From Lachnospiraceae bacterium (GTDB lineage Bacteria > Bacillota > Clostridia > Lachnospirales > Lachnospiraceae), in the NCBI GenBank assembly GCA_017626325.1, contig JAGAIZ010000075.1, positions 1-36,378 on the forward strand: DNA of 36,378 nucleotides, written 5' to 3'. The notes under the pieces were generated by a model. The model did not search any database. It was not told the DNA's origin and was given only the letters and a program-made list of their open reading frames with translations. Shown in pieces: positions 14,609-33,163 of this stretch. Positions within the stretch are counted from its first letter, which is position 1. Each line of letters opens with the position of its first letter. Both the position numbers and the translations under genes were made by a program.

Positions 14609-14756
14609 TTTAATCCTCATTTCTGAGCGGTTGCGGCGAAGCGGCAAACCTTACAAAGGTAAAATTGCAGTCCGCCATCCGGGCTATTTGTCTCCGCTCA
14701 GAAACAAATAGTCGGCAGATCTTTCCTGCGACGGGCGATTGATCCATCTATCACCC
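14609..14756 (-). other. Spacer between Hint and FN3-like genes with a small stem-loop
   Basis: This 148-base gap has no gene. It contains one perfect 8-bp inverted repeat, CTATTTGT at 14684-14691 and ACAAATAG at 14704-14711, without a T-run. It does not look like a terminator, so co-transcription across the gap is plausible. Confidence 0.4.
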
Positions 14757-16505
14757 TTATCCTTCCGGCAGTCTTCCGTTCTGCACCAGAAAATCCCCTG
14801 TCTGAAAACCATTCGCGAAGACGATCGACGGCGTGTCAAATTCCAGGTTATACACTTCGCATACCTCTTCCACAGTCTCCACCGCCGTCACGTTCTGCTC
14901 TTTGCCGTCCGCCGCAAGCATTTTATCGCCTGCCCGCAGCTTGTCCGCCAGCTTCCAGCCATCAGCAGTCAGGAAAGGATGATTTCCTGTGGCTTTGATA
15001 TTCTGACCGTTCTCCACGGTGATAAGCCTGCAGCCTGCCTCCATCCCTCTCCAGACATTCTTCACCCTGCCTGCCGCGGCGCATTCTCTGCCGCCTCCGC
15101 CGACTGCTGTGCAGACCAGATCGCCGATAGCGATTTCACGGATTCTCTTCCTGCCGCCGTCTGCCATCTCTATCATCGTATCCTTGTCCAGACAGCCCCA
15201 TTCTATGATCAGATAAGGCGCCCTGCCCTCCAGGACTTTTCCCTTCACCGGCTGGCCGGAAGTAATGCTGTAATGGCAGGGGTGAATATCGCTGTGCTCA
15301 TCGATTCGATAGAAGCCGTCAAACGTAAGCGTATAGGAATACTTAAGCTGCTCCCACATACCGGGATGTATGTAGCCCACATTCCAGGAACCCACGAAAT
15401 CATAAATAAATGACCGTTTTCCATTGGTGTCACAGACAATGGGCACCGCATACTCACTGTTATCCGCGCTGGACGCGATGACCCGCACGCCGTCGAAGTC
15501 TTCCTGCGTCACCGTACAGATAAGCTGTGACTTGTGATTCGCATCCTCATAGAACGCTCCCATATTGATGCCCAACTCTCCGTGCACAGGAACGCCCAGT
15601 ATCGGATAATTCCCCTGCCATGGGCTAACCTTGCCGAAATTACACAGATAATCCAGATCAGACGTATCGTCCGGCAGACGAAACAGCGCAATTTTGACGG
15701 TTTCTTCCGTCTCCCGAGACGCCAAGACCTCCCTGTGCGCATTCAGACCCAGACCCGCAGACATATTCTCATACATATCCGCCTCGCTCAGCGTATGCGC
15801 AAACGCCGGCGTATGATAGTTTCCTTCTTCAAAAACCAGATAATGCTCCTGCTTCTGGGGATGCACGATGGTGTGCGTCATCTCATAGCCCCGCTCATCC
15901 TCAAAAGCCGTCACCTCCACGCTGCTTCCCGACTGCTCCACCAGATCTGCGTATACCAGAACAGCTACTTTATCATTTACGTCAAATTTGTCCGCGAAAT
16001 TGCCCTCCGCACTGTAGGAGGCACGGGAGCTGTCCGTGACCGTCTGCGGCGCGAATCTGTTCATCAGACATTCTTCCTTCACATCGTACAAATCCGCATA
16101 CATGGTAATCTCACGGCATTTCTCCGCAAATCGGAGATTTGCTTCCAGATGAAACTGCCCTGTCTTATGGTCATACTGAAACGACGCGATTTCCAGACTG
16201 GAATAGATTGCACCTGTCCTCGGCGGTTCCCCGTTTTCACACAAAAAGGGAGCGCCGGTTCTTCCGATTCTGTCTGCCGGTTCCCTGTCTTCGCGCGAAG
16301 ACGAGACGCCGGTCATGCTTGCCAGCTTCCCGCTTTCACACAACAAGGAGACGGCAGTTTTGCCTGTCTTCTCTCCGTTTTCGCACAAAAAGGGAGCATC
16401 GGACATCTTCGCCGCCTCCCTTTTTACCATAAGTCTTGTGCCGGATTCTTTCATCTCCGCCAGAAGCCTGCCCGGGTATTTCGTTGTACCGTTTCGTCCT
16501 GCCAT
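14757..16505 (-). CDS. Protein with C-terminal Hint (intein-like autoprocessing) domain
   Basis: This is a 582-residue protein; the ATG at 16505 has AAGGAGG upstream. Residues about 1-90 are a low-complexity basic tail with imperfect repeats of a Cys-containing motif (APFLCENGE twice, VSLLCESGK once). Residues about 95-430 form an unrecognised beta-rich domain. A Hint domain occupies about 438-577: Cys438 after Trp-Gly, then DTMIEMADGGRKRIREIAIG, the block-B motif TGNHPFLTADGW near residue 506, LRAGDKM, and the end FANGFQTGDFLVQN, followed by only six residues (GRLPEG). Hint domains carry out an N-to-S acyl shift at the first Cys, giving splicing, cleavage or transfer of the upstream polypeptide. 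The end is Gln-Asn rather than His-Asn and the next residue is Gly, so it fits a bacterial intein-like domain better than a true intein. It is the first gene of the run. Confidence 0.9.
   Translation of the reverse strand: MAGRNGTTKYPGRLLAEMKESGTRLMVKREAAKMSDAPFLCENGEKTGKTAVSLLCESGKLASMTGVSSSREDREPADRIGRTGAPFLCENGEPPRTGAIYSSLEIASFQYDHKTGQFHLEANLRFAEKCREITMYADLYDVKEECLMNRFAPQTVTDSSRASYSAEGNFADKFDVNDKVAVLVYADLVEQSGSSVEVTAFEDERGYEMTHTIVHPQKQEHYLVFEEGNYHTPAFAHTLSEADMYENMSAGLGLNAHREVLASRETEETVKIALFRLPDDTSDLDYLCNFGKVSPWQGNYPILGVPVHGELGINMGAFYEDANHKSQLICTVTQEDFDGVRVIASSADNSEYAVPIVCDTNGKRSFIYDFVGSWNVGYIHPGMWEQLKYSYTLTFDGFYRIDEHSDIHPCHYSITSGQPVKGKVLEGRAPYLIIEWGCLDKDTMIEMADGGRKRIREIAIGDLVCTAVGGGGRECAAAGRVKNVWRGMEAGCRLITVENGQNIKATGNHPFLTADGWKLADKLRAGDKMLAADGKEQNVTAVETVEEVCEVYNLEFDTPSIVFANGFQTGDFLVQNGRLPEG
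14760..15194 (-). other. Hint domain coding segment
   Basis: This segment encodes residues 438-582 of the first gene in the run. The catalytic Cys codon is at 15192-15194 and the terminal Asn lies six residues before the stop. Key residues seen are Cys438, the Thr-Gly-Asn-His block and the Gln-Asn-Gly end. The expected second-last His is replaced by Gln, which could favour cleavage or transfer over splicing. Confidence 0.82.
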
Positions 16506-16778
16506 CGCATATCCTCCTTATTCTGCATTTTTATTTCCGGGGTAATACTTATAACAATACATGGTTGCCTTGACGATCTGTTTGTTTTAATAATTGATTT
16601 GATAATTTTGAAACGCAAAACGTAGAAATAAACTGATTTTATTGTATCAGCTTCCCGATACAGATGCAAGCGGGAACTATGGTGAATCAATCAATCCCAT
16701 AGTTCCCGCCTGTTTTGTGATCATATATTATGCAGTATTAATCATTGCATATGAAAAAATGTATTCTGGCAGCTTCGG
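16506..16778. other. Intergenic region before the five-gene run
   Basis: This 273-base AT-rich gap lies between the secreted-protein stop and the Hint gene start. It must hold the promoter of the large gene run, but I could not pick a -35/-10 pair with confidence. It contains a strong stem-loop (16670-16709) and a weaker one (TGTATC/GATACA, near 16644-16661). Confidence 0.5.
16670..16709 (-). terminator. Stem-loop after the large secreted-protein gene
   Basis: A perfect 13-bp inverted repeat, GCGGGAACTATGG at 16670-16682 and its complement at 16697-16709, has a 14-base loop. It lies about 70 bases beyond the stop of the 1617-residue gene. There is no good T-run on the minus side (a TGTTTTG follows on the plus side), so the terminator role is likely but not certain. 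Confidence 0.6.
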
Positions 16779-19700
16779 CTACTTCACGATAACCGGACAT
16801 GTAACCTCGGCATTCTTCTCGTTGCCTGCCTTATCACGGTAACGAACCGCCAGCTTTACTTTCCAGGTCTTACCGCTTGAGACAATGTCCCGCGCGCTGT
16901 ATTTATCACACAGTGCCAACGTGACGGATTTCGTTTCAGGATTATAGGTCACATCGTAAAACTCATCCGAATCCTCCGCCTGTATCTGCGTCGTGCGCAG
17001 CTCCAGATCTTCTGTGTAATTAAGCAGCCATACGTCTTCTATCGCCACGTCCTTCTTATTCAGAACCGCATCCAGCCGGATTTCCACCGTGCTGTCGACC
17101 TGTCTGTAGATTGTATTGTTCGCCGCAGACGCTTTCAGCTTCGGCTTACCCTGCTTAAGCTTGATAGAAAATACTTGGTCCGTTCTGACCTCATAACCAT
17201 CATAATCCTGTGTCTGTACGTAGAATACAGGCTTGACCTGATATGTGTTCTTCGTAGAGTAGCTTTCTCCCACTCTTGCGTACACGGTCAGCTTGCCGTC
17301 TTCCCATTCACAATCGAACAGATCGGCGTCTCTGCCTTCCAGCCAGCCGCCCTCAACCGTACCGGAAAGTCCTGTGAGTTTAGGCGTATAGGTGACACAG
17401 GTTCCTTCTCTGTCGAGTACGTCAATATTTCCTTTGGCCGTAACCTTCAGGCTCTTGCTGACAGGTACGTCCACCACCTTAAGATTCAGTACTGCGGATG
17501 CAATCGCACCCTTCTCATCATTGCCGACCGTAACCTTGAATTTATAGGTTCCCGTGTCCGCCTTGTTATTATTAAATCTGGCAATAATATCACCGCTGTC
17601 GTTCCAATACTGGAGCACCAGACTGTTGTCCGTCTTCAACGCTTTCTTCGACTTATCGTCCTGTCCGGTAATGGTCACCCAGTTGTAATCATCCTGCATC
17701 ACGCTGTTGCTGCATCCTTTCAGACGCAGGGAGGTTCTCGCCATCTGCGCACGGTATACGCCGCTGTTCTTATTCAGCGTAAGCGTCGATGCGCCGAAAG
17801 CAAGCTTCGGACTCGCGCTGCTTACCGAGACACTGTAAGAAACCGTAAGATACTCCGCCCAGTTTGCCTCCTTAATCTCCACATTGAACTTATCCGAACC
17901 CTTGTTGTAAGCGGCTCCCGTCTCCTGCAGTCTGGATACGATATCGCCGTCCGGCGTTACCAGAAGGTTATAGGTATTCTTGCCCTTTATGGTCTTTTCC
18001 TGGCTGCCGTCTTCCGTAAATTCGCTTACCGCCAGTTCTGTGTACTGTTTTTTGTTCTTATTGACTACATAGCGCGCCTTCGCCGGCTCAATTCTTTCAC
18101 CGGTTGCCTTATCGCTTACCACAAGCCAGGAATCCGTGTACCAGACCGCAGGATACAGCGTATCTGACTTGGCCGATAATACTAACGCAGGCTTCTTCGT
18201 CTCCGTGGATACTTTCAGTGTCTCGCTGAAGGTTCCCGCGTAGCCCGGTATCTTATATGTCAGCGTACCCTGATTGTTCTTCGCGTTTCCGTTTGCTTTC
18301 AGAGCGATATAATATGTGCCATCCTGCTCTTTCAGTTCAAAATCACACTGTTTATTCTTCTTCGGATTCTTGCTGTCCGTATACCGATTCAGCTTCAGAT
18401 CCTGAATCTCAGCGTCGCCGTTTACTTCCAGAACGCCCCAACCTTCTTCATCGGTATAGAAGAGGTTTACCTTGCTTGTCTGTCTGAACTTAACCGCCGG
18501 CTTAGTGTCCGCGATATTCAGCGTAAGGCTGATCGGATAGGTCGCCGGTTTTTCCTCATAACCGCCGTCTTCCCCGGTATTTTCCGGTTTCACGGTAAAG
18601 TTCAGCGTCACGGTATTTTTGCCCTTCTTCAGGTTCTTATCCGAAGCGGCTTTTCCAGTCAGGCTCAGGGTAACTTTATAATCATTATAGTTCTCTTCTG
18701 CCTGTCCGCTTATCTTTGTTACCTGTACCGCGAGCGCTGCCGTAGATTTCTTATTCAGCTTTAAGGAAGCGGCAAGATCCTGCGCCGTATCGATCGGATA
18801 CTTTTCGTGGGTACGTACTATGAATTCCGCACTCTGCTCTTCCATAGCCTTATTGATCGTCACAGAAGAAGCGCTGATAATCTTCGGCTCCCTGTCGACG
18901 AATTCCATGTAATCCCTTCTTACGGATTTCATTTCATCCGGCGCTGTGATCTTAATCCACGCCGTACCCGGTTTCTTGTTCTCACATGGAATTCTGATAT
19001 AAGTATAGACGAATCCGTCCTCTTCTTCGCCATATGTGCTTTCATAGACCGTATTTTTCGTAGTAAGCTTCAGGATCGACGTATCCTCGCTGGCCATCGT
19101 AAGCTTGCGCGTCCAGTCAAGCGTCTTCTTATCCGCATCCTCCTCACATACTCTGTAACACAGCCACATCTTACCATTATCGTCTGATTCTATCCATGGT
19201 CCTTCCAGCTTGTCAAAATCATACAAGGATCCTACGGTCACAGTAATCGTACAAGTATCCTTGAACGCTACCTTCTTCGTGTTCTTATCCTTCATGGATA
19301 CCGTGAAGGTCTTCTTCTCGGCTTTCCTCGTTTTACCTGTAATAGAACCCGTGTAAGTGTACAGGCTTCCCGACGCTTTACCAAGATTCTTCGGAGTAGA
19401 CGTCCATTCTACACTGTAACGCGCGTCCATTCTGTCGCGAACCGCATTATATTCCGTCTGATATGTCTCTCCTGTCTCGCCGTCAAGGTTTGTTATCTCA
19501 TAGCTTCTGCCAAGGGTAATGCAGTCGTTCTCGCTGATAGAAGACGGCGCCTCCCCGATGTCCGTTACCGCTCCCTGATCATCCTGATCAACGGATACGA
19601 TCGAAACGCCTGTCACAGTGACCATTCTCACCCACAGATTACAGGTATAAGTTTTCTTGCTGTCCGGCTCTGTATAGACTGCCGCAAACATATGCCTATC

Positions 19701-21632
19701 CGTGCCTTTGAACGAATCCAGACTCATATCCTCTTTCCACGCCCAATTGGCAGGTAGCTTGATATCGGAAAGCTTCGTATCAAGGTTGGTAACCGCGTAC
19801 AGATTCATGGCTTCTACCTGATCCTGTACGTCATCCCAGCTTAATTCCTTCGTTACGCTTATCGTACAGCTCGCCGCAGCTACCGTTTCCGCGGAAGCAT
19901 CCTCTCCATCGCCTGTACTGCGCATATAGGAAGCAGTAATGACAGCGGTTCCTTCTCCCACCGCCAGAACTTCGCCGTTAGGGTTTCCTTCGTCGCTTTC
20001 ATCGCCATTCTCATCATATTTCACCAGGGAAACCACGTTCGGGTCGCTGGTCGTCCACTGGATTTGATCAGGATTGCCCTGATCGCACTCCGCACCGGAA
20101 GGATAGAAACGCAGACGCAGATATTGTCGGTCGCATTCCTCCCTCTCCTCTCTTGCCGTCATGCTGATCTTATCTTCATCGAAGGCAATCTGAATCTCCT
20201 GATCAGACACTTTGGCACGGTGTACTTCCAGATAAGTCTGTTTGCCCGCATTGTATTTCACATAATAATAGAACTCTCCCGGCTCCCAGGCTGTCATAAG
20301 TCCATTTGCGTCGATGGAAGCAATGTCCGGATCTAAAGACGTCCATTTCGCGCCGCTGACATCAGAAGAGCCGCTGCGCTCCCCTGCCTTGAGCTGTTTC
20401 GTCGCCCCCGCCGGAACCGCCTCTTCATCCTCATATACCGGAGTCAGAAGATATTCGGTATTGAACTGTACTGCGTTTAAATCAGATATTTCAATACCGC
20501 GTTTGGGCGTGTATCCTTCTTCTGCGACAGCCACATACGACGCCTCGAAATCTTCTGTCCTTACTGTCGGATTACCTGACTTCAAACAGAATACCGCCGG
20601 GCTGTAGTTCTGTGTTCCCAGGCAACTGTCATATCCTGCAAATTTGCTGTCGTCTGATACCTCAGAAAAGAAATAAACAGATTCTGCCGGAATCGCGCTG
20701 TTTGCATTAAATTTCACTTTAACACCCTGATTGGCCAGAAGTGTCTCTGTATAGGTTACCTTAATATCGCTGGCAAAATATCCCGGCTGATGCAGCACAA
20801 AACCGCGCAGCAGATTCTCAGAATAGAATCCCAGTTGAAGCCATCCCCCTTCTGTGAGGACATCCACAGCCGCGTTGCCGACATCTTTACCAATAGACGG
20901 ACTGAGTGAAGCATCCATCCATGCTATGATTCCATCAAACTTCTCGCCACGGTCAGCCCAATACCTCAGAATAGCCGCAAATTCTTTATTGGTGGGCGAC
21001 TTATGATTCTGTTCCCAGATCTCACCGCTTTGTATGATCAGGAAACTCTCTCCATCACTATCATCCACATCGCCTACATAATTCAGTCCGCCATTGTCAG
21101 GCTCCGTCGTATTCTCAGATACCGTGTTCATGGATACAGAGTTCTCCTCTTCCTCCAGATAGACGTCTTCTTCCGTCTCTTCGGTATCCTCAGTAAGATC
21201 GCCTTCTTCTGCGTCCTCACCATCCTCTGTGACGCCGCCTTCTTCTCCGGCTTCACCATCCTCTGTGGCATCGCCCTCTTCTCCGCCGTCGTCCTCGGCA
21301 TCATCCGGATTTATCTCATCCTCCGAATCTGTCTCCTGATCTGTACTCTCATCAGGATTCTCGTCAACTGTTCCGTCTGAATCATCCCCGGAAGGTTCAG
21401 ACGCGTCTTCGCCGTCTTCCTCCCCGGACGCGTCAGGACTGTTATCATCGTCCGGATCATTTTCATCATCCGTCTCTGCATTGCCGTCAGGCATATCCTC
21501 ATTGAGGTTCTCCTGCACTACGTCATTCTCAGCCGCATACGACACCATGCCTGTCTGCGGAACCGAGGTCATGATCATAGCCGCGCACAGAAGCATTGTA
21601 AGCGCCTGCCGCACTTTACGAATATTCTTCAT
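16779..21632 (-). CDS. Large secreted protein with acidic repeat stalk and Big_2-like domains
   Basis: This is a 1617-residue protein. It starts MKNIRKVRQALTMLLCAAMI, a clear Sec signal peptide with cleavage near residues 33-34 (VSYAA). Residues about 40-165 are extremely Asp/Glu-rich with imperfect repeats of the form EEGxxTEDGE. Later segments match bacterial Ig-like (Big_2) patterns, for example WTSLDPDIASIDANGLMTAW and WTTSDPNVVSL followed by GEVLAVGEGTAVITASY. The rest is a series of lysine/threonine-rich beta domains. The C-terminus (EVTCPVIVK) has no LPXTG, no membrane anchor and no obvious cell-wall repeat. Such proteins usually act at the surface as adhesins or stalks; how it is held is unclear. 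A ten-G run lies inside the likely promoter. The start is the ATG at 21630-21632, with AAAGGAG about 13 bases upstream, rather far. Confidence 0.92.
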   Translation of the reverse strand: MKNIRKVRQALTMLLCAAMIMTSVPQTGMVSYAAENDVVQENLNEDMPDGNAETDDENDPDDDNSPDASGEEDGEDASEPSGDDSDGTVDENPDESTDQETDSEDEINPDDAEDDGGEEGDATEDGEAGEEGGVTEDGEDAEEGDLTEDTEETEEDVYLEEEENSVSMNTVSENTTEPDNGGLNYVGDVDDSDGESFLIIQSGEIWEQNHKSPTNKEFAAILRYWADRGEKFDGIIAWMDASLSPSIGKDVGNAAVDVLTEGGWLQLGFYSENLLRGFVLHQPGYFASDIKVTYTETLLANQGVKVKFNANSAIPAESVYFFSEVSDDSKFAGYDSCLGTQNYSPAVFCLKSGNPTVRTEDFEASYVAVAEEGYTPKRGIEISDLNAVQFNTEYLLTPVYEDEEAVPAGATKQLKAGERSGSSDVSGAKWTSLDPDIASIDANGLMTAWEPGEFYYYVKYNAGKQTYLEVHRAKVSDQEIQIAFDEDKISMTAREEREECDRQYLRLRFYPSGAECDQGNPDQIQWTTSDPNVVSLVKYDENGDESDEGNPNGEVLAVGEGTAVITASYMRSTGDGEDASAETVAAASCTISVTKELSWDDVQDQVEAMNLYAVTNLDTKLSDIKLPANWAWKEDMSLDSFKGTDRHMFAAVYTEPDSKKTYTCNLWVRMVTVTGVSIVSVDQDDQGAVTDIGEAPSSISENDCITLGRSYEITNLDGETGETYQTEYNAVRDRMDARYSVEWTSTPKNLGKASGSLYTYTGSITGKTRKAEKKTFTVSMKDKNTKKVAFKDTCTITVTVGSLYDFDKLEGPWIESDDNGKMWLCYRVCEEDADKKTLDWTRKLTMASEDTSILKLTTKNTVYESTYGEEEDGFVYTYIRIPCENKKPGTAWIKITAPDEMKSVRRDYMEFVDREPKIISASSVTINKAMEEQSAEFIVRTHEKYPIDTAQDLAASLKLNKKSTAALAVQVTKISGQAEENYNDYKVTLSLTGKAASDKNLKKGKNTVTLNFTVKPENTGEDGGYEEKPATYPISLTLNIADTKPAVKFRQTSKVNLFYTDEEGWGVLEVNGDAEIQDLKLNRYTDSKNPKKNKQCDFELKEQDGTYYIALKANGNAKNNQGTLTYKIPGYAGTFSETLKVSTETKKPALVLSAKSDTLYPAVWYTDSWLVVSDKATGERIEPAKARYVVNKNKKQYTELAVSEFTEDGSQEKTIKGKNTYNLLVTPDGDIVSRLQETGAAYNKGSDKFNVEIKEANWAEYLTVSYSVSVSSASPKLAFGASTLTLNKNSGVYRAQMARTSLRLKGCSNSVMQDDYNWVTITGQDDKSKKALKTDNSLVLQYWNDSGDIIARFNNNKADTGTYKFKVTVGNDEKGAIASAVLNLKVVDVPVSKSLKVTAKGNIDVLDREGTCVTYTPKLTGLSGTVEGGWLEGRDADLFDCEWEDGKLTVYARVGESYSTKNTYQVKPVFYVQTQDYDGYEVRTDQVFSIKLKQGKPKLKASAANNTIYRQVDSTVEIRLDAVLNKKDVAIEDVWLLNYTEDLELRTTQIQAEDSDEFYDVTYNPETKSVTLALCDKYSARDIVSSGKTWKVKLAVRYRDKAGNEKNAEVTCPVIVK

Positions 21633-21683
21633 AATGCTTTTCTTTCTCCTTTCTCACACCTGTTTTTACATAGGGCTAGTACT

Positions 21684-21714
21684 ATTTTACCCCCCCCCCA
21701 CCTACAAATATCAA
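21684..21714 (-). promoter_or_regulatory. Likely phase-variable promoter: poly-G tract in the -35/-10 spacer
   Basis: On the minus strand TTGATA (21709-21714) and TAAAAT (21684-21689) are separated by 19 bases, of which ten are an unbroken G run (plus-strand C at 21690-21699). A 19-base spacer is longer than the best 17, so losing two Gs would give an optimal promoter. The start of transcription would fall about 45 bases before the secreted-protein ATG. Slipped-strand change of such tracts is known to switch surface-protein genes in other bacteria. Confidence 0.65.
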
Positions 21715-21743
21715 GTGTTATTCTGTATGTTTTTTCGATTTTT

Positions 21744-22103
21744 CTATTCAGCGTATATTTCTAAAAATGATGTGATTTTCCCATATGTATATTCGCCCTC
21801 AGTCAAACCAAACTCCGGATCATAATATTTGTTATCATAAAACAGTGTCCAATGCGTATATCCCTCAATTGTATGGACTGTCAAAATCGAATACTTATAT
21901 GGAATAGGGTTTTTCCTGGAAATCCGTTTGTTTCTTTCAGCGTGACCAATACCATAAAAATCAAGTATTTCTATTAGTTGACCAATACTCGTAGCTCCAT
22001 CCGTTTTCATATCTTGAATTACTTCTTCAACACTTTTTCCAGCAATCATAGCAATACATGCTTGTCCACATGTTGAAAAAGTAGGCTGCATAATCAATTC
22101 CAC
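21744..22103 (-). CDS. Small C39-like papain-fold cysteine peptidase
   Basis: This is a short cytosolic protein of about 119 residues. The GTG at 22103 is preferred because GGAGGG lies seven bases before it; the upstream in-frame ATG at 22118 (which overlaps that site) has no ribosome site, and an ATG at 22091 is also possible. It keeps the C39-like pattern: a Gln shortly before the catalytic Cys in QPTFSTCGQACIAMIAGKS, and a later THWTLFYDNKYYDPEFG holding the His and Asp. Full C39 domains are about 130-150 residues, so this is near complete and stands alone, with no ABC transporter or bacteriocin gene beside it. It lies just upstream of the phase-variable promoter. The substrate is unknown. 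Base use is more AT-rich than in region 1. Confidence 0.75.
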   Translation of the reverse strand: MELIMQPTFSTCGQACIAMIAGKSVEEVIQDMKTDGATSIGQLIEILDFYGIGHAERNKRISRKNPIPYKYSILTVHTIEGYTHWTLFYDNKYYDPEFGLTEGEYTYGKITSFLEIYAE

Positions 22104-22204
22104 GTATTTACCCTCCATCGATTTTCATTCTCTGTTTTATCCATATCTTCTGCGAACCCCGATTCTTCACTCTCTGCAGCTCCCCGAAAAATGAGAATTG
22201 TTGT

Positions 22205-22990
22205 TCAGTTCTTTGTGTTAATCCTACTCCTTACAAGCACAGCAAATGGTGTGATTACCAGATACAGAACGGTCAGAATCACAAAGAATCCTATATCCGC
22301 ATCCAGAAACACATAAATGATATTAAAGCCAAAATGCAGCAGCACCGGGTAGATCAGATTATTATACCTTTCGAGAAAGATGTTCATCAATATGGTAATT
22401 GAAGTAATGACAACAATATTGGAAATGACATAAGGAACTGCCCTCCAGTCGGTAAACTCTGAATCCACGATCCAAAGCAACGTATGCCAGAAGCACCACA
22501 CCAAGCCCTGACAGACAGAGGATTTAAGGAAGCCGTATTTTCTGTTAAATTCCTCCCGCATAAAACCGCGCCATCCTAATTCTTCCCCTGTCGGTCCCGA
22601 AGTCAGGGAGAGAAAAATACTGAGCGGCAACGCTGTCGTTCCCAGCCGGATGTAGGACAGCATGGGCTTTCCCATAATAACGGAAAAAATAAACAACGCC
22701 AAAATACTAATCCCAAACGTAACAACAAAGGAACATAGCAACGGAAAAAGTTTTACCTTACCCGAAAAACACCGTTTCACAAAAACCGTTCTTGTTTCGT
22801 CCGGTCTGAAATGTTTCCAACCGATCAAAAGCAGATACGTTGGCGACCATGCGATCAGGTTACGAACAATCCACATAATAACGGGCGGTGCATGAAAAAC
22901 AAGACTTGCCGTACCCGCCACAAAAATAATGAGCGCCCAAACCAAAATATAGGAACTGATTATGTATTTTTTTAAATAATTTGTTTTCAT
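22205..22990 (-). CDS. CPBP-family intramembrane metalloprotease (Abi/CAAX type)
   Basis: This is a 261-residue protein with about seven hydrophobic spans; GAGGAGAT lies five bases before the ATG. The family motifs are all present: EELGWR (Glu136, Glu137, Arg141), WCFWH (His169) and HFGFN (His219, Asn223). These form the metal site of CPBP glutamic/metalloproteases in the membrane, which cleave prenylated or other membrane proteins and in some bacteria protect against self-made bacteriocins. It lies 120 bases after the TetR gene on the same strand. An inverted repeat in that gap resembles the TetR operator, so regulation by that TetR is likely. The substrate is not known. Confidence 0.9.
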   Translation of the reverse strand: MKTNYLKKYIISSYILVWALIIFVAGTASLVFHAPPVIMWIVRNLIAWSPTYLLLIGWKHFRPDETRTVFVKRCFSGKVKLFPLLCSFVVTFGISILALFIFSVIMGKPMLSYIRLGTTALPLSIFLSLTSGPTGEELGWRGFMREEFNRKYGFLKSSVCQGLVWCFWHTLLWIVDSEFTDWRAVPYVISNIVVITSITILMNIFLERYNNLIYPVLLHFGFNIIYVFLDADIGFFVILTVLYLVITPFAVLVRSRINTKN

Positions 22991-23044
22991 TCTGCCATCT
23001 CCTCTACTTATTTTTTTAACTTCATGCTTCTACTGTTTTCCTTT

Positions 23045-23069
23045 CAACAGACCGTCTGCCTGTCTGTTG
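23045..23069. promoter_or_regulatory. Inverted repeat before the CPBP gene, probable TetR operator
   Basis: Perfect 8-bp arms CAACAGAC (23045-23052) and GTCTGTTG (23062-23069) have a nine-base centre that itself contains GTCTG. It shares GAC/GTC elements with the operator in front of the TetR gene, suggesting that one regulator binds both. This is inference from pattern only. Confidence 0.45.
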
Positions 23070-23110
23070 AAGAGTACATAAAATAGCGGCTATAATGCCC
23101 TATCCTTGCC

Positions 23111-23749
23111 TTATCTGCCGCTATCTTGAAAAAGGGGCGTAATAATCGATTTCATGCTGTCACGCTCCTGATGCAGAAGCCGTTCCAGATTGTATATAAA
23201 TGCCTCTATCTTCCTCTGCCTTTCTTCCTCTCTGAGTTCCGCCAAATCATCAAATACCGTGTTGGCATACAAAAATGTCATTTCCGCAACTTCTTCAGGA
23301 TAATCCGTCTGGCATATCCCCTGTTCTATTCCCTCATTGATCAAGCCTGCAATGACCGGAACAATGCCGGACAACAAAGACTTCTCCATTTTCTGATGCA
23401 TGAGGGCATTCTGCGGCTTATGCATCTGTTTCAAAAGCTCCTGTCCCAAACTGTCACCGCCCACCTTCAGAGAAAGCATCATCATGACAAACCGCTGCAG
23501 CACAGGCACATTTTGCTGCGCCGCGACTGCTTCCGCTTTCTCGACAAGCCGGAACGTCATGCGGCTGATCATTGCGTCCAAAATTTCTTCTTTTGATTTA
23601 AAATGGTAGTAAAGCGTCCCCCTTGCAATGCCAACCGCATCCAGTATCTCGCCTGTGCTTGTGCCATCAAAGCCTTTTGTCCCAAACAGCTTTTCCGCTG
23701 CATCCAATATCTCATTTTTCCGTTCCTCCGCCTCTTTTACCACACGCAT
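23111..23749 (-). CDS. TetR-family transcriptional regulator
   Basis: This protein of about 212 residues has a classic TetR N-terminal helix-turn-helix: ILDAAEKLFGTKGFDGTSTG, then VGIARGTLYYHFKSKEEIL. The C-terminal two-thirds is the helical ligand-binding and dimer domain. The ATG at 23749 is preferred, with GGGAGG eleven bases upstream; the GTG at 23761 overlaps that ribosome site. It has its own strong promoter with an imperfect palindrome at the start site, which suggests that it represses itself. The downstream neighbour is the CPBP protease, a likely target. The ligand is unknown. Confidence 0.93.
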   Translation of the reverse strand: MRVVKEAEERKNEILDAAEKLFGTKGFDGTSTGEILDAVGIARGTLYYHFKSKEEILDAMISRMTFRLVEKAEAVAAQQNVPVLQRFVMMMLSLKVGGDSLGQELLKQMHKPQNALMHQKMEKSLLSGIVPVIAGLINEGIEQGICQTDYPEEVAEMTFLYANTVFDDLAELREEERQRKIEAFIYNLERLLHQERDSMKSIITPLFQDSGR

Positions 23750-23774
23750 GAAAGCTGTCACCTCCCGTCCTATA

Positions 23775-23789
23775 GACTGACTGTCGGTC
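23775..23789. promoter_or_regulatory. Probable TetR operator
   Basis: GACTGACTGTCGGTC is a 15-base palindrome with one mismatched pair. It lies two bases downstream of the -10 box, over the expected start of transcription, and resembles known TetR-family sites built on GAC/GTC half-sites. Confidence 0.6.
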
Positions 23790-23791
23790 TT

Positions 23792-23820
23792 ATTTTATCA
23801 TCAAGAAACTTCTCTGTCAA
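23792..23820 (-). promoter_or_regulatory. Sigma-70-type promoter of the TetR gene
   Basis: On the minus strand a perfect TTGACA (23815-23820) is followed after 17 bases by TAAAAT (23792-23797). Transcription would start near 23785, inside the palindrome. Confidence 0.75.
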
Positions 23821-23850
23821 TTCCATTTATACAAAACAGAACTTCAGGTC

Positions 23851-24786
23851 TTAAGCATGTAAACGGTGTATCAGCCGGTAAGCCATATCGCTTTCCGTTA
23901 TCAGATCCTCCGTGTGATTGAAGAAGACGATCCCGTCTGTGGGCGCGATAATCGTTTCCCTGACGCCTCCTTCATAAGGGTCTATAATCTCCGCCAGCTT
24001 ATGACCGTAACGAACATCCTCCCCGGCTTTCACAAGTCCCCGGAATATGCCGCCGCTTGTTACATGAATATTGGTCAGATCCTCTTCCATAATCACATGA
24101 CTGATATAGCCGCTGTGGCTCTCGTACCGGATGATGCCCATACGCGTTAAGAAGCGCAGAATCGCCGCCACCGCCTGACTTGCGCTCCTTTCATCCACCT
24201 CTGTATTTTTATTGGTATACAGGGAAAAAGCCGCCGTCATTTCATCCTGCCAGTTATAATTCAGCGTCTTGGTATCGATCGGTCTGGGTTTCCTGACCAC
24301 CACATAGGGAAGCCCGAACAGATTCGCCAGCGAGGTATTCTGGTATCCCGTCTCCATCATCCTGACATGGGGCACGAACTCCCCTGTCATGTAGAAGCTG
24401 GCAAGCTGGATACCATAGCTGTAATCCTTGATCTTCCCGAAGACGCCGCCTGCGATCCTGGAGGCTGTCTCTCCATAAGAGCTGCCCGGAAATCTGCGGT
24501 TAATGTCCGCATTCTCCACGCCCCAGAAACGTTTTCCTACATTCATGGAATAATTATTCACAACCGGAATCACCAGTACCTCCTTGCCGGAGCTGATACA
24601 GCCGTTGTTCTCCAGCTCCTTCAAAACGCGCACCAGTTGAGAGCATATGTATAACTGCTGAATCTCATTGCCCCGCATGGGTCCTAAAATGCAGGCCGCT
24701 TTATCGCCCTTTCCGAAGCGGTAGCCTCTTACCACCATCGGCTCCCTGTAAGGCGCCTCCATTCTGTAAATCTCATCTATAAACAT
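23851..24786 (-). CDS. M14 AstE/aspartoacylase-like paralogue lacking the zinc histidines (likely pseudoenzyme)
   Basis: This 311-residue protein clearly shares the fold of its upstream neighbour but has lost the active site. GIHGDE has become GPMRGNE: His is Arg38 while Glu41 stays. INRRFPG (Asn96, Arg97) is kept. The DIHAS zinc-ligand motif has become GIQLAS (Gln127), and the catalytic Glu of VVEMG is replaced in VVVRKPRP (Arg165). The C-terminal beta domain (TSGGIFRGLVKAGEDVRYGH, IIAPTDGIVFF) is intact, so the gene is not simply decaying. It starts two bases after the stop of the active paralogue, a tight translational pair. Possible roles are a partner subunit, a binding protein, or an enzyme with a changed metal site. 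Many sequence annotations would call this an active desuccinylase; the residues argue against that. Confidence 0.88.
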   Translation of the reverse strand: MFIDEIYRMEAPYREPMVVRGYRFGKGDKAACILGPMRGNEIQQLYICSQLVRVLKELENNGCISSGKEVLVIPVVNNYSMNVGKRFWGVENADINRRFPGSSYGETASRIAGGVFGKIKDYSYGIQLASFYMTGEFVPHVRMMETGYQNTSLANLFGLPYVVVRKPRPIDTKTLNYNWQDEMTAAFSLYTNKNTEVDERSASQAVAAILRFLTRMGIIRYESHSGYISHVIMEEDLTNIHVTSGGIFRGLVKAGEDVRYGHKLAEIIDPYEGGVRETIIAPTDGIVFFNHTEDLITESDMAYRLIHRLHA

Positions 24787-24788
24787 AG

Positions 24789-25739
24789 CTAAAACTTCCT
24801 TCCCTCAACAGTGTTACTTAAGATTCTGGCAAGCAGAGCTCCTTCGTATACAAACGGATACTCCCGCAGCGTAAAGACGATTCCCGCCTTCTTCGCCCGT
24901 ATTTCCTGTTTAACCGTTCCGGTCAATGCCTCTACAATCTCTCCGATCTTTTCTCCCTGCTGCACAAAATGCTGGTGTGAGATCTCAGGCAGGAAGATAC
25001 CCGCATGCTGTGCCCGGATGAACTCTACTTCTCCGTCCGTAGACACGGCAGGCTCCCGTACAGCAATGACCGGTCCGGTCCAAAGCCCCATTTCATGCAT
25101 CAGATGGAAGATGCCGTCCACGACCTGATCGCCGTACACCCTGTTCACCCGCATGCCAAGGCCCATCTCCACCACCAGCGCAGGAACCCCCAGCATATTC
25201 AGGGAATGCGCCAGAGTGGATTCATGTACTGTGGCGGACGCATTCAGCCATATCATATCCGTATTCAGAAGCTTCGCAAAAGGAAGGAGCTTCTGCCCGA
25301 ATTCAGAACTGATACGCACCTGCGGTATTTCCCTGACATATGTGTCAGATGCATGGATATCCAGACAGATATCCGCACCCGCGATGTCGTTCACAACGGC
25401 GGCAGCCACTCTTTCCATAACGGCTCCCTGCGACGACCCCGGAAAAATCCTGTTCATATCCATTTCCAGCTTGGGAACATTCCGGTTCGCCATGTCAATA
25501 CCCAGAGGGTTAAGCTGTGGATAGATATCCACGATCCCCTTAAGATGCTCCGGATGCTCTTTCAGTCTCCGTATCATCTCATAGCAGACATACTGTCCTT
25601 CCAGTTCGTCCCCGTGAATGCCCGATACGATAGCGATTCTTCCCTCTCTGCCGGTAGAATTCTCACATACGATTCTGTTTCTGTAGATTACCAGATGCTC
25701 CCCCACGGGAAGCTCTATGGAACATACCTTACTTATCAT
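24789..25739 (-). CDS. M14-family succinylglutamate desuccinylase/aspartoacylase-like hydrolase
   Basis: This 316-residue zinc hydrolase counts from the ATG at 25739; a TTG at 25763 is also possible, and neither has an ideally spaced ribosome site. Motifs are complete: GIHGDE (His42, Glu45), MNRIFPG (Asn96, Arg97), DIHAS (His129) and VVEMG (Glu191), matching the zinc ligands, substrate-binding Asn-Arg and general-base Glu of AstE/aspartoacylase. A C-terminal beta domain ends in IVFTLREYPFVYEGALLARI. The family removes an acyl group from an amino acid or a related amide; no arginine-degradation genes are nearby, so the substrate is open. It overlaps no gene and is followed at once by its inactive-looking paralogue, with which it is almost surely co-expressed. 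Confidence 0.9.
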   Translation of the reverse strand: MISKVCSIELPVGEHLVIYRNRIVCENSTGREGRIAIVSGIHGDELEGQYVCYEMIRRLKEHPEHLKGIVDIYPQLNPLGIDMANRNVPKLEMDMNRIFPGSSQGAVMERVAAAVVNDIAGADICLDIHASDTYVREIPQVRISSEFGQKLLPFAKLLNTDMIWLNASATVHESTLAHSLNMLGVPALVVEMGLGMRVNRVYGDQVVDGIFHLMHEMGLWTGPVIAVREPAVSTDGEVEFIRAQHAGIFLPEISHQHFVQQGEKIGEIVEALTGTVKQEIRAKKAGIVFTLREYPFVYEGALLARILSNTVEGRKF

Positions 25740-25791
25740 CCTGTAACAATACCTTTCTCTCAATGATTCATCAGATACCTTTTGCGGAAGA

Positions 25792-25818
25792 AAGGTGCTT
25801 CCTTATAGAAAGCACCTT
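25792..25818 (-). terminator. Stem-loop between TetR gene and M14 pair
   Basis: Perfect arms AAGGTGCTT (25792-25800) and AAGCACCTT (25810-25818) have a nine-base loop and are followed on the minus strand by TTCTTCC. It lies 24 bases after the TetR stop and probably ends or reduces its transcript. Confidence 0.55.
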
Positions 25819-25841
25819 CCATAACCTCTCTGCTATGTATC

Positions 25842-26423
25842 TTATTCTATAATCAATCCCTGCATGATATAGAGAAGCTGCTCATCCACCATCTTCTCCG
25901 TAATGCCGAAGGTCTGCGCGTCGATCTTCATTCCTTCCAGCACATACATAATATTGCTCGCCGCGCCCCTCGGATCCTCACAGTAGAACTCGCCGCTGGC
26001 AATACCCGCTTCAATCAGCTTTTCGAGTACTCTGACACCTGCGTCAAACTGCCTCCGAAGCATATTATTCTTATCGGTCGATTTATGTGCAAAAAAATAT
26101 TCATAGACCGCTACGGTCAACGTATTCTTTTTCCGCAGCAGTTCCTTCTTCTGCTCCTTGAGAAACAGTGTCAGAATATCTGCCGCCGTATCCTCCTGTG
26201 TGATATTCTCCGTAAACACGTCGTCCGTTTCGGCAGCATCCAGCTCCAACACTTCCAGGAAAATCTGTTCCGTACTGTCAAAATACAGATACAGACCGCC
26301 GCGGCTGATCTCGCAGGCTTCCACGATATCCTTCATGGTGACGTTCTTATACCCCTTCTCCATAAATACCCGTCTGGCTGTCTCTAATATATATTTCTTC
26401 TTCTGTACTGATTTCTCTCCCAT
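25842..26423 (-). CDS. TetR-family transcriptional regulator (second)
   Basis: This protein of about 193 residues begins MGEKSVQKKKYILETARRVF. The ATG at 26423 is chosen for the GAAGGAAGG just upstream; the first in-frame start at 26450 has no such site. The helix-turn-helix is typical: ARRVFMEKGYKNVTMKDIVE, then CEISRGGLYLYFDSTEQIFL. The rest is the helical ligand-binding domain. It is upstream of the M14 pair on the same strand, separated by a stem-loop, so it may control that pair. No clear operator palindrome was found in front of it. Confidence 0.92.
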   Translation of the reverse strand: MGEKSVQKKKYILETARRVFMEKGYKNVTMKDIVEACEISRGGLYLYFDSTEQIFLEVLELDAAETDDVFTENITQEDTAADILTLFLKEQKKELLRKKNTLTVAVYEYFFAHKSTDKNNMLRRQFDAGVRVLEKLIEAGIASGEFYCEDPRGAASNIMYVLEGMKIDAQTFGITEKMVDEQLLYIMQGLIIE

Positions 26424-26502
26424 ATGCCTTCCTTCTCCGATAGTCCTCATGTATTTCTATGGGCGTCACGCCGAATCTATGCATGCCCTCCGGCGGCTCT
26501 GT

Positions 26503-26590
26503 ATTCTCTGACTGCCCTGCATTCTCCGGCAGCCCTGCGCTCTGTGACTGCTTTCATTCTCTGACTGTCCTGCATTCCACTGCCACCCTG
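26503..26590. repeat. Degenerate 18-bp tandem repeat, about five copies
   Basis: Units start at 26503, 26521, 26539 (17 bases), 26556 and 26574. Copies one and four are nearly the same, ATTCTCTGACTGCCCTGC against ATTCTCTGACTGTCCTGC. The array ends on the base next to the stop of the 155-residue gene and fills most of the gap to the TetR gene. Confidence 0.65.
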
Positions 26591-27058
26591 TCAGGTTATC
26601 ATGGGCTTATCCCAGAATTCAATGTTCTCCTTCATCTTCTTAACGATGTTCAGAAAAATCTTATTCTGTACGGCTTCCGTCCACAGCCTGCCCTTCGTCA
26701 TGCCGCCCATTACATATTTAGACAGGATTCCTTTTAACACGTCCATATCTCTGATACCGGACCGGTCAATCATCCTCAGTTCATCCGCCACCGTGCGAAT
26801 CCGGTTTCTGGAATAAACATATGCGTAATTTCTGTCTAACAGCTTCGTCCTCTGCACCTCTTTAATAAAGCTCATCAATGTGCCGTCATATACCGGAAAC
26901 GTAATGGAATTCTCCCTGATTCCCGAACCTTCAAAGGTTTCCGACACCTTCTGTCCCGCTTTCTCTTCCAGCCAGGGAAGATACCGGATCAGCTTCTCCA
27001 CGTCCGGCTTGTAAGCATCTATAATCTGTTGTCTGTAAGCTATATCTTCTTTCTCCAT
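26591..27058 (-). CDS. Conserved-looking hypothetical protein (155 residues)
   Basis: I do not assign a family. The protein starts MEKEDIAYRQQIIDAYKPDV and has no signal peptide or membrane segment. Notable features are YLPWLEEKAG near residue 25, FPVYDGTLMSFIKEVQRT near 54, DRNYAYVYSRNRIRT near 75, and ILSKYVMGGMTKGRLWTEAV near 111. This mix of conserved-looking aromatic and Gly/Met patches suggests a real, folded cytosolic protein, and codon use matches the neighbours. A 14-base palindrome, TGACATACTTGTCA, lies 79 bases upstream (27137-27150) and could be an operator. The TetR gene lies downstream on the same strand. Confidence 0.75.
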   Translation of the reverse strand: MEKEDIAYRQQIIDAYKPDVEKLIRYLPWLEEKAGQKVSETFEGSGIRENSITFPVYDGTLMSFIKEVQRTKLLDRNYAYVYSRNRIRTVADELRMIDRSGIRDMDVLKGILSKYVMGGMTKGRLWTEAVQNKIFLNIVKKMKENIEFWDKPMIT

Positions 27059-27247
27059 CCCGGTTACTGCCTTTCCTCATGCGCCGCTGCACTCAATCCA
27101 GCCAGTCAAAAAAAACTGACATGCGTTCCTCTCTCGTGACATACTTGTCATTTTATTCTAACATACTTTTTTTAAAAGTACAGCACAAAATACTTTGAAA
27201 CTTCTTGTGCATATTGCCAAAACATGCTTTTCACGGCCTTCTATTTC

Positions 27248-27276
27248 TTGTAATTATTTTTGCTCAGTCTTATAAT
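27248..27276 (+). promoter_or_regulatory. Sigma-70-type promoter of the cNMP-binding-like gene
   Basis: TTGTAA (27248-27253), a 17-base spacer and a perfect TATAAT (27271-27276). Transcription would start near 27283, giving a leader of about 83 bases. Confidence 0.75.
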
Positions 27277-27328
27277 TAAAGTATCATGGGAGAAGTTCAT
27301 GAGATAATAAGTTACAAATCAGAAGGGG

Positions 27329-27349
27329 CATCTGCATTGCGTGCAGATG
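27329..27349 (+). promoter_or_regulatory. Leader hairpin just before the ribosome site
   Basis: CATCTGCA and TGCAGATG form a perfect 8-bp stem with a five-base loop in the leader. It ends one base before the AGGGG ribosome site, so it could affect translation or mRNA life. No T-run follows. Confidence 0.5.
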
Positions 27350-27365
27350 TAGGGGACTATAATAT

Positions 27366-29630
27366 ATGGCTTTAAAAGAATATCCGGCTGGCACACAGTT
27401 GGTTCAGAGCGAACAGAACATTACCGCTTTGCACGTCATTGCAAAGGGCGCCGTCCGTGCCGCTTATCCGGGCGGTGTTTTCTACTTATACAAGGGAGAT
27501 GTCATTGGCGTCTGTGAACTTTTCTTCGGCTCCTATTTCATTTCCTATCAGGCGGAGGAAGCCGTATCGCTCGCTTCTTATCCGTATTCCGCAGCGCAGT
27601 TGTCCAATATCATGCATTCTAATGCCGATATGGCTAACCTGATCGTCACCTCCATGTTCAGACAGCTCCAGGAGATTCTGGATCAATACGAGCTGGCGCG
27701 TTTCGACTGCGATAATTTCTATCACTATCTTACCGACAGCTACGACGAATATCTGTCCTTCTGTTCCAAACATGGTTTTTCGCCCAGAGCGCTTCCGGGG
27801 CTGGAATCTTTGTCCGAACTTGTATTGGAAGAAGATATTGACCGCTGGCTTGGCGGCTACTATTCCCAGCTTCATAGGATGGTGACCGGAAAGCCCATTA
27901 AAGGACAGGATCCTGATTTTCTGCTGGGGCTTGTCTTCAAAGCCAGCCAGGACGTTCATGAGGTAGTATCTGTCTGCCGTGTTTTATACGATTATAAAGC
28001 GGATATCTCCAATCTGCTGATGAATGAAAATCATTTGGATTTCTTCGATTTATACGCGAATCTTCTATATAAGATCGGCTCTAACGCCGACGATTCCACC
28101 AGCCTGATCGCCGCGCTGAGCACCATGATGATCCAGTTGGAGAGCCAGCCCTCCATCGATCAGACTATGTACCGCACACGAGTTGCCGAGTATAAGGACC
28201 GGCTCAATAACTTAAGCGAATACACACAGACCCAGCCCAATGATGAAGCCCAAGCGGATGAGATGCCTGATATCATGGATTCCCTGAATACGATCCTTAC
28301 CTATTCCGGCGTTGATGAAGAGACGGCTTCTTCCTTTAGAAACGCAATCGGCAAATACACTAAGATGCCTGACAAGAACAGTTCTGACGACGCCTCCAGG
28401 AAACTGCGGCTTACGATCACCAAGCTGTTCTATCAGATTTATGAAAAAGCATTTTTGAAAAGCCTGCATGACGCCTCAGTACCCAGGGTACTGCAGATGT
28501 TCTTCAACTTCGGCTACGTGGATGAACATCTCGCCGGCATGGATAACGCCGCTTATCTGTATTCTATTGCTGACAAGCTTCCTACGGATCCCGGTAAGAA
28601 AGTCTACAGCATTTATGAATGGCTGCATGCCATCTATACCGGACAGAAAATGCCCAGCCGCAATGAGTTTGACACCGACTATCTGGCTTATGTCCACGAA
28701 CTGAAAATGACCGGCAAGATCAGCGCTGCCGAAGAAACCAGCATGCAGAATGACAGGGAGAAACGTGTTCTTTTCGAAATGCACAATATGTTTCCTTGTG
28801 TCAACAAGATCTCCTTTGGACGTATCAGCAGTTTCTGTCCGGTCTTCTCAGAGCACAATATCCTGAAGGACCTGGACGCTTCCCTCGTATCGGCGGAGAA
28901 GATAGAAAACGCCTTTGCGCAGATTCGTTCCATTGATTTCAGCGCCTACTACCGCGATATGATCTACACCAATCCGGAACTTGGCATCGGCAAGGAATAT
29001 ATCGGCGTAGAGATTCTTCCCGATATTATCCTGATGCCTAATATCGGTATCCGCGGCGTTATGTGGCAGGAAATCGAAGGACGCAAGCGTACTACGCCGT
29101 CCCGTATGATGGTATCCATTTTCCAGATGGAAGATCTGACCAATATTCTGGTACGTCTGACCGCCGATTTCCGTTGGGAAATGTGCAAGCGTGTCCAGGG
29201 CGCCAGATGGAACGACGTCTCCGACGCTTCCCTTACAAGCGAATACTTCGACTATATCCAGTTCTATAAGAAAAACAGGGACCTGTCGGCGGATGCCAAG
29301 GATAAGATCAAGCTCAGTATGCAGAAAGCAAAGAACAGTTTCAAGGAAATGTTTATCAGGGATTACGAATCATGGATTCTCTACGAGGGTACCGGTTCTC
29401 CAAGATTAAACAAGATAGCCCGCGGCATTCTCTTCACCTACTGTCCTTTTGCCAAAGAGGTCCGCGAACGGCTGAAAGCCAATCCGCTCTATAAAGATAC
29501 TATGGATCGTTATGACATCAAGCTCAGCCAGAAGCTTCATCATTACGATAACCTGTTCCAAAAGCTTAAGAACATGGGCGCGGAGATACCCAGGGAAATC
29601 CAGGAACAGCGCAATTACCTGAGCAAATAA
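27366..29630 (+). CDS. Cyclic-nucleotide-binding-domain-like protein with long helical C-terminus
   Basis: This is a 754-residue cytosolic protein; the ATG follows AGGGG by ten bases. Residues 1-110 look like a CRP/CAP-type beta-barrel: MALKEYPAGTQLVQSEQNIT, HVIAKGAVRAAYPGG, and YKGDVIGVCELFFGSYFISY. The phosphate-binding cassette is not canonical, because the usual Arg-Ala pair is not seen, so it may bind another ligand or none. No helix-turn-helix follows; the remaining 640 residues are mostly helical and unrecognised, with an acidic linker near 290-310. It is not a transcription factor of the CRP type. It has its own promoter and faces the formate channel gene across a shared terminator. 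The role may be sensory or scaffolding, by inference only. Confidence 0.85.
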   Translation: MALKEYPAGTQLVQSEQNITALHVIAKGAVRAAYPGGVFYLYKGDVIGVCELFFGSYFISYQAEEAVSLASYPYSAAQLSNIMHSNADMANLIVTSMFRQLQEILDQYELARFDCDNFYHYLTDSYDEYLSFCSKHGFSPRALPGLESLSELVLEEDIDRWLGGYYSQLHRMVTGKPIKGQDPDFLLGLVFKASQDVHEVVSVCRVLYDYKADISNLLMNENHLDFFDLYANLLYKIGSNADDSTSLIAALSTMMIQLESQPSIDQTMYRTRVAEYKDRLNNLSEYTQTQPNDEAQADEMPDIMDSLNTILTYSGVDEETASSFRNAIGKYTKMPDKNSSDDASRKLRLTITKLFYQIYEKAFLKSLHDASVPRVLQMFFNFGYVDEHLAGMDNAAYLYSIADKLPTDPGKKVYSIYEWLHAIYTGQKMPSRNEFDTDYLAYVHELKMTGKISAAEETSMQNDREKRVLFEMHNMFPCVNKISFGRISSFCPVFSEHNILKDLDASLVSAEKIENAFAQIRSIDFSAYYRDMIYTNPELGIGKEYIGVEILPDIILMPNIGIRGVMWQEIEGRKRTTPSRMMVSIFQMEDLTNILVRLTADFRWEMCKRVQGARWNDVSDASLTSEYFDYIQFYKKNRDLSADAKDKIKLSMQKAKNSFKEMFIRDYESWILYEGTGSPRLNKIARGILFTYCPFAKEVRERLKANPLYKDTMDRYDIKLSQKLHHYDNLFQKLKNMGAEIPREIQEQRNYLSK

Positions 29631-29646
29631 CAAGTACTTTCCAAAC

Positions 29647-29712
29647 AAGCGGCATGAATCCCCTGAATAAACGGCATAAATTCTCTGAATAAACGGCATA
29701 AATTCTCTGAAC
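29647..29712. repeat. 22-bp tandem repeat, three copies
   Basis: Copies are at 29647-29668 (four mismatches), 29669-29690 and 29691-29712 (one mismatch). They lie in the short non-coding gap between the cNMP-like gene stop and the bidirectional terminator. Confidence 0.75.
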
Positions 29713-29716
29713 GAAC

Positions 29717-29789
29717 AACATATTAACGCAAACAAAACGGAAATCAACTGCCATGCCGGGCGCTGATTTCCGTTTTGTTTTAATATGTT
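29717..29789. terminator. Bidirectional rho-independent terminator
   Basis: A perfect 17-bp stem (29730-29746 with 29764-29780) with A-rich left and T-rich right flanks is extended after a small bulge by AACATATTA (29717-29725) pairing with TAATATGTT (29781-29789). It lies between two convergent genes and should stop transcription from both. Confidence 0.9.
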
Positions 29790-29823
29790 ACTTCTCTTAT
29801 TTTTAAATCGCTTCTCCTGCTCA

Positions 29824-30663: not shown

Positions 30664-30726
30664 ACTTTCCTCTCCTTCTCTTTGTCTCTGACAATACCCC
30701 TGTACATCATTTCTATTGACGTAATG

Positions 30727-30755
30727 ATGTTACCATATCCGCGATTAGAAATCAA
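30727..30755 (-). promoter_or_regulatory. Possible promoter of the FNT gene
   Basis: On the minus strand TTGATT (30750-30755), a 17-base spacer and TAACAT (30727-30732). The -10 is weak and overlaps a GTAA/TTAC palindrome, so control by a regulator is possible. Confidence 0.4.
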
Positions 30756-30998
30756 TTCATGTACTAAAGTTTGTACATTTCATTTTTCTTCCTTTACTCA
30801 TGAGCAAAATGGTTTTAAAAAAAGAAGTTTTAAGTCGATTTTATCTCCTTTTTCGACTTGTTTCGCCAATATAGTGCTATTCTTCTGCAATATAATTATA
30901 GACTATTCCACAAAAAACCATTATATTATTTATAGACTTGATTACGGAAGTCAAGTCGGTAATAGCAATTCCGGAAGAATTCCCCTTTTACACAAGCG

Positions 30999-31031: not shown

Positions 31032-31068
31032 TGTTTTACAGAAGAAATTGTATGAAGCAAGCAGACTG

Positions 31069-32910: not shown

Positions 32911-32938
32911 GTCTCCTCTCCTTCTGACTCTGCTTTAG

Positions 32939-33136: not shown

Positions 33137-33163
33137 TTCTGACTCCGTTTATTCGCGCAATAA

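Follow-up and report, generated by a model that had tools for sequence, protein, structure and literature searches.

In Neisseria meningitidis, a poly-G tract lies in the spacer between the −35 and −10 elements of porA, and one-base changes in this tract are described as altering transcription (PMC3899988, PMC7864442). Treponema pallidum tp0126, an OmpW homolog, likewise has poly-G between −35 and −10, is reported to be transcribed best at a spacing of 17 nt, and belongs to a genome with several poly-G tracts of at least 8 Gs, 76% of 17 tested tracts being clearly variable (PMC7864442). For meningococcal fetA, promoter tracts of 9C or 10C are described as giving high, 11C intermediate, and 8C or 12C to 14C low expression, and the predominant phase-variable length is reported to give intermediate expression (PMC13293289). 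G-tract slippage is also described as controlling a surface structure, the pilus, in Bifidobacterium breve (PMC9187656), and a 2025 review mentions inversions (invertible promoters) in C. difficile and Bacteroides and a repeat in Gardnerella (PMC11868660). Among the titles, abstracts, and passages listed from the open-access literature, none was found to describe switching by poly-G promoters in Lachnospiraceae or any other clostridial group.

A ten-G tract within a predicted promoter

Here, we analyzed a stretch of 36,378 nucleotides (hereafter, the window), which is contig C59 of an 88-contig, 3.11-Mb draft genome of a Lachnospiraceae bacterium. On its minus strand, a TTGATA/G10/TAAAAT module lies 51 bp ahead of an open reading frame (ORF) of 1617 aa, with the following features.

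21744..22118, minus strand: upstream ORF, 124 aa, matching phrog_4049 (function unknown)
21709..21714, minus strand: predicted −35 element TTGATA, 5/6 of TTGACA (from the sequence and the genus-wide pattern)
21708-21690, minus strand: spacer of the predicted promoter, 19 nt, TTTGTAGGT-GGGGGGGGGG, ending in G10
21700..21708, minus strand: non-repeat part of the spacer, nine bases, TTTGTAGGT (from the sequence)
21690..21699, minus strand: G10 tract abutting the −10, the proposed slippage site (from the sequence, shuffles, and genus pattern)
21684..21689, minus strand: predicted −10 element TAAAAT, 5/6 of TATAAT (from the sequence)
~21677, minus strand: predicted transcription start, ~7 nt past the −10 (placed from the −10 only)
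16779..21632, minus strand: ORF of 1617 aa with ATG at 21632, predicted large secreted or surface protein

The sequence-only reading had placed TTGATA and TAAAAT 19 bases apart with ten Gs between them, directly before a 1617-residue secreted protein; the arrangement is exact, and a simple repeat thus sits between the two predicted elements. The protein would be secreted or surface-exposed judging by its sequence, which begins with a signal peptide (called by inspection and a home-made rule) and continues with an acidic low-complexity linker and a Big_2 Ig-like domain (residues 403-453, E 5e-6); comparison with NCBIfam and PHROG returned no family for it at E 0.1. Since the upstream ORF stops 29 bp before the −35, the predicted promoter is intergenic. 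The tract had also been called the only long homopolymer in the window, which stands for G and C, the bases counted (it is the sole run of at least 7). By itself, the G10 tract is only mildly unusual, because dinucleotide shuffling of the window produces one in 9/100 cases; the complete layout (TTGA, a 15-21 nt spacer, at least G8, and TANNNT) appeared in 0/100.

Neither of the two closest homologs of the 1617-aa protein, one in G026 (46% identity) and one in G025 (41%), shows a G/C run of at least 7 in the stretches fetched, and the module is therefore not conserved with the gene. No ortholog of the G10 promoter was found when the upstream DNA was used as a query against 77 same-genus genomes, the query returning, besides itself, only short weak matches (11/77 genomes at E <= 0.01, its own included). 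Around the locus, we observed a 582-aa ORF next after the surface gene on the same strand (14757-16505, minus strand) with a C-terminal Hint/intein-type domain (PT-HINT, TIGR01445), a 679-aa ORF (7291-9330, minus strand) that resembles the MBL-fold protein of the anti-phage system 6A-MBL only weakly, at a score far under the cut-off, and a shift in G+C near the end of the surface gene (0.53-0.59 in window 1-16000 vs 0.44-0.51 in 16000-36000).

Across both strands of the draft genome, six runs of at least nine Gs were counted, three promoter-like and three in coding sequence.

C59, 21690-21699: G10, promoter-like, the tract described above
C49: G9, promoter-like, directly before TATAAT and ahead of a 120-aa ORF
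C43: G13, promoter-like, between TTGATA and TATTAC, before an FdtA-like gene and a DegT-type aminotransferase gene
C43: coding run inside the FdtA-like gene next to the G13 promoter
C49, 11796-11804 (G000:C49:11796-11804; L224:3797-3805): coding G9 in the gene of a GH53-domain surface protein of 2454 aa, shortly past its signal peptide; frame open
C3, 23872-23880 (G000:C3:23872-23880; L225:1873-1881): coding G9 close to the beginning of a glycosyltransferase-like gene; as assembled, the frame closes immediately past the tract

The 120-aa ORF on C49, which has a hydrophobic start and no Pfam family, precedes the gene of a secreted subtilase-domain protein. The glycosyltransferase-like name on C3 comes from inspection of the protein start and a similar start in a family-2 glycosyltransferase of G012, the remainder of the gene on its own having no Pfam family match. 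The coding G9 runs on C49 and C3 are candidates for translational switching, and all six runs can be read as belonging to putative surface-protein or surface-glycan genes.

Recurrence of the layout across the genus and beyond

A G9 run followed by TANNNT was found 147 times vs 15 for the reversed control when rows were summed over 61 genomes (the window's own and relatives), and 125 vs 13 times within the genus (37 genomes). TTGACA stood at 17-20 nt in only 5 of 26 such sites listed, so not all of them are promoters. The fuller pattern, TTGA with a 15-21 nt spacer ending in at least eight Gs and then TANNNT, gave 77 sites (the window's own included) in 37 of the 77 same-genus genomes, and 0 for the reversed pattern; as three of these sites fall within a longer same-strand ORF (home-made rule), not every one is a promoter. 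The stricter TTGACA/G9 form occurred in 30/77 same-genus genomes (one G6-only genome dropped) and in 6/391 genomes sampled from the class, one of them belonging to the genus. Since this leaves 5/389 class-sample genomes outside the genus, the genus is a hotspot for tract promoters; none of 14 genomes from other genera of the same family had this form. These main patterns catch only tracts touching the −10, and allowing tracts elsewhere in a TTGACA...TATAAT spacer added 12 matches in 11/77 genomes, one already among the counted sites.

Scanning GTDB genomes returned at least 118 stretches holding at least 122 sites, and many of the matches listed had Clostridia, Lachnospiraceae, or Bacilli in their titles; Treponema, Saccharibacteria, and others were also present. 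TTGACA-spacer-G9+-TANAAT was also seen in Moraxella, Streptococcus suis, Streptobacillus, S. orisratti, S. sciuri, and Gemella (L108, L123, L131, L154, L160, L196, L201), with a signal-peptide protein downstream at L131, L154, L196, and L201 (home-made rule). Viral contigs held seven sites. Three phage contigs (L307, L309, L308) are near-identical, two with TTGACA-N4-G12-TAAAAT before a gene called HNH-like by inspection and the third with a longer, interrupted tract; the two G12 stretches are identical. These sites are uninformative about switching.

To describe the genes behind the tracts, we used a home-made ORF and signal-peptide rule, the start rule for background ORFs being slightly different. 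An ORF began within ~320 bp at 70 of the 77 genus sites, and 63 sites were usable once 14 had been dropped (seven without an ORF and seven too far or cut short). A signal peptide was called downstream at 42/63 of them vs 19/96 other ORFs of the fetched same-genus stretches (Fisher P 3e-9). Outside the genus, among the GTDB matches listed, the proportions were 60/96 vs 94/490 in the background (P 1e-16), this set having been formed by leaving out five loci of same-genus genomes and then dropping 21/117 sites. A contrast in protein length (26/63 vs 2/96 with at least 1000 aa) was not relied on, since the fetched stretches are centred on the switched genes and the background is unfair; many of the 26 long proteins are cut by the stretch end. 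In a Pfam scan of 18 hand-picked examples, 13 had named domains, three had no family, and two had only domains of unknown function. The named ones comprised BspA-type leucine-rich repeats combined with Ig-like domains, solute-binding proteins, components of ABC transporters, a chemotaxis receptor, a protein resembling TadZ, an acyltransferase, a glycosyltransferase of family 2, a 4-alpha-glucanotransferase, and a zinc ribbon. The tract-controlled set thus appears, by predicted product, surface-biased rather than surface-only.

Tract length, spacing register, and the proposed switch

When the pattern allowed at least six Gs, the 60 tracts comprised one G6, one G7, three G8, 31 G9, 20 G10, and four G11, an order opposite to chance decay. 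Long, pure repeats were thus kept across loci: 55/60 sites had G9-G11 and 5/60 had G6-G8, where interruptions farther upstream would also appear, and when the sixth base counted from the −10 was free to differ from G, 57 of 59 tracts were pure at that position and two were interrupted (spacings 17 and 18). Slippage needs long pure tracts, which a mere G-rich spacer would not keep. One interrupted tract, with a single A within the Gs and a spacing of 17 (L316; G094:C93:11989-12017), has a pure G11 counterpart with a spacing of 18 (L302; G099:C7:62291-62320) in a locus 84.6% identical over 4 kb; both promoters precede a solute-binding lipoprotein (family assigned via a homolog in G023), and the interrupted one is possibly locked.

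Tract length differed between some relatives and was constant in most of the ortholog groups compared. Across 3942 compared bases (~4 kb; 95.7% identity) of G022 and G018, the latter with masked bases, the one indel fell in the tract (G11/G10), and G065 and G027 differed in their tract (G9/G10) and by one indel elsewhere. In another three close comparisons, of which one set two copies within G067 against each other, a single indel was seen in one and none in the other two, and the tract was unaffected in all three; the five close comparisons, out of 14 aligned pairs, thus contain four indels, two of them in tracts. Among five species, the promoter of a DUF6709 gene carries G9 in four and G7 in the remaining one. 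Within most ortholog groups, tract length does not change, as with G9 in four orthologs of the MKRTISVLLAAAM... gene. In a second architecture, seen in seven species (L318-L324, in G019, G095, G096, G012, G005, G098, and G010) ahead of a small lipoprotein that comes in two protein subtypes, G9 lies one to three bases behind TTGACA and is followed by TATATAAT; here the tract is invariably G9, and TATAAT follows at 19 nt in every case (an overlapping TATATA at 17 nt).

Across the 77 sites, the spacings were 16 (11 sites), 17 (9), 18 (13), 19 (40), 20 (3), and 21 (1). When tract lengths were permuted among prefixes, the expectation for spacing 19 was 21.4 sites, and the 40 observed were not attained in any of 20,000 permutations, though this test ignores shared descent, which could explain part of the excess; spacings 18 and 20 were depleted in the same permutation. 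Prefix and tract compensate for each other, 19 of 22 ten-base prefixes having G9 and 17 of 25 nine-base prefixes G10, although their lengths correlate only weakly overall (−0.17). Plain TTGACA...TATAAT pairs in the window's own genome (n = 47, one sequence counted twice) were spaced by 16 nt (16 pairs), 17 (15), 18 (2), or 19 (1), the rest by 13-14 or 21-23; as the reversed pattern gives 13, some of the 47 are chance matches. Plain pairs in the fetched loci peaked at 17. With a mode of 19 vs 16-17 in plain pairs, the commonest state of the tract promoters is two to three bases above the usual spacing. For promoters of such a type, the published optimum is 17-18 nt (PMC4235727, PMC7864442). Eight Gs had been proposed to give the ideal 17-base spacer; the arithmetic is right and plain pairs are usually 16-17 nt apart in this genome, yet 17 nt as sole optimum had to be corrected, since 31 of the 47 plain pairs split almost evenly between 16 and 17.

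Together, these observations lead us to read the G10 module as a phase-variable promoter, probably a slipped-strand switch of the porA/tp0126 kind (probability roughly 0.75). During replication, the G tract would gain or lose single Gs through slipped-strand mispairing, and each such change would alter the −35/−10 distance and with it promoter strength. The assembled G10 state, at 19 nt, is predicted to give low to intermediate transcription, which contraction towards 17-16 nt would raise, so that cells of one clone would show heritable, reversible differences in making the 1617-aa surface protein. This switch would be one of a genus-wide set whose targets are mostly surface proteins, lipoproteins, and transporters, together with glycan genes. 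The sequence-only suggestion of a switch is partly supported: layout, recurrence, long tracts, signal-peptide bias, and length differences between some same-genus species speak for it, and the constancy of most orthologous promoters compared speaks against it.

We take the surplus of sites at 19 to reflect selection on the state. The main rival, an unlikely one in our view, is a fixed weak promoter in which the G tract is structural (DNA stiffness or twist), long yet faithfully replicated, with 19 nt setting a low strength. It would explain why spacing 19 is enriched beyond chance rather than smeared, why one length is kept in most ortholog groups, and why the seven lipoprotein promoters of the second architecture all have G9 and 19 nt though their tract lies near the −35. 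A structural role, however, needs neither 9-11 Gs nor purity, yet G6-G8 and interrupted tracts are rare; spacings from 16 to 21 are all seen, tract length differs among some orthologs, and the bias towards signal-peptide genes also speaks against it. MerR-type activators act on 19-20 nt spacers, and a mechanism in which the 19-nt spacer is bridged or twisted by an activator or special factor, with the Gs as its site, would fit the mode of 19 nt shared by tracts abutting the −10 and tracts set near the −35; we consider it improbable, because the rest of the spacer varies by gene with no dyad evident by eye, the −35 and −10 are near consensus, and spacings of 16-18 are also common (33/77). A chance homopolymer, with the gene read from another promoter such as TGGACA-18-TATTAT (21851-21822, within the upstream ORF; 10/12 in a promoter scan that accepts only 16-18 nt spacers, the 19-nt G10 layout thus being absent from its list), gains something from the shuffles with G10 alone but is hard to credit against the empty shuffle count for the full layout, the 77 vs 0 sites in the genus, and an excess of promoter-like matches over the 10 kb scanned (24 vs 13.4 expected), by which a single match means little.

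Extending the slipped-strand switch to the whole genus is a more tentative step. It is possible that the genus has a promoter phasome, in which dozens of surface, nutrient-uptake, chemotaxis, and glycan genes have G9-G11 core promoters, and gut selection parks most of them off-optimum (19 nt, two to three bases over 16-17), default low, with an on-variant one to three slips away and interrupted copies locked near the optimum (17 and 18 nt). If switching is true, gut Lachnospiraceae create surface diversity by promoter-tract slippage. Tract lengths could be counted in existing metagenomic reads, which would make in-host switching measurable for many loci in parallel. Whether hosts select an off state could be tested directly through the excess at 19 nt.

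Relation to described switches

The porA product is a Gram-negative outer-membrane porin. Like porA, the locus described here has a G homopolymer between −35 and −10 before a predicted surface protein gene; unlike porA, the product is a predicted secreted Ig-like protein of Lachnospiraceae, the tract lies against the −10, and the site is one of 77 in its genus. With tp0126 it shares poly-G between −35 and −10 and a genome with several long poly-G tracts, but phylum and gene differ, and variation was measured in T. pallidum whereas our locus was read from one assembly. As in fetA, a homopolymer lies in the core promoter, and the off-optimum majority register resembles the intermediate fetA length; the tract here is poly-G, whereas fetA has poly-C and encodes an enterobactin receptor under iron regulation. 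The B. breve pilus switch likewise joins a gut commensal, a G tract, and a surface product, but the pilin tract lies between two ORF parts (a frame switch) and ours in a promoter. Of the two parallels drawn from the sequence, to phase-variable surface genes of Neisseria and Haemophilus, porA fits with its poly-G spacer, but Haemophilus hifA/hifB is described as having a TA dinucleotide repeat instead (PMC3899988). The mechanism itself is already known from porA, fetA, hifA, and tp0126, and what appears new against the open-access literature searched is the genus-wide scale and the preferred off-optimum register.
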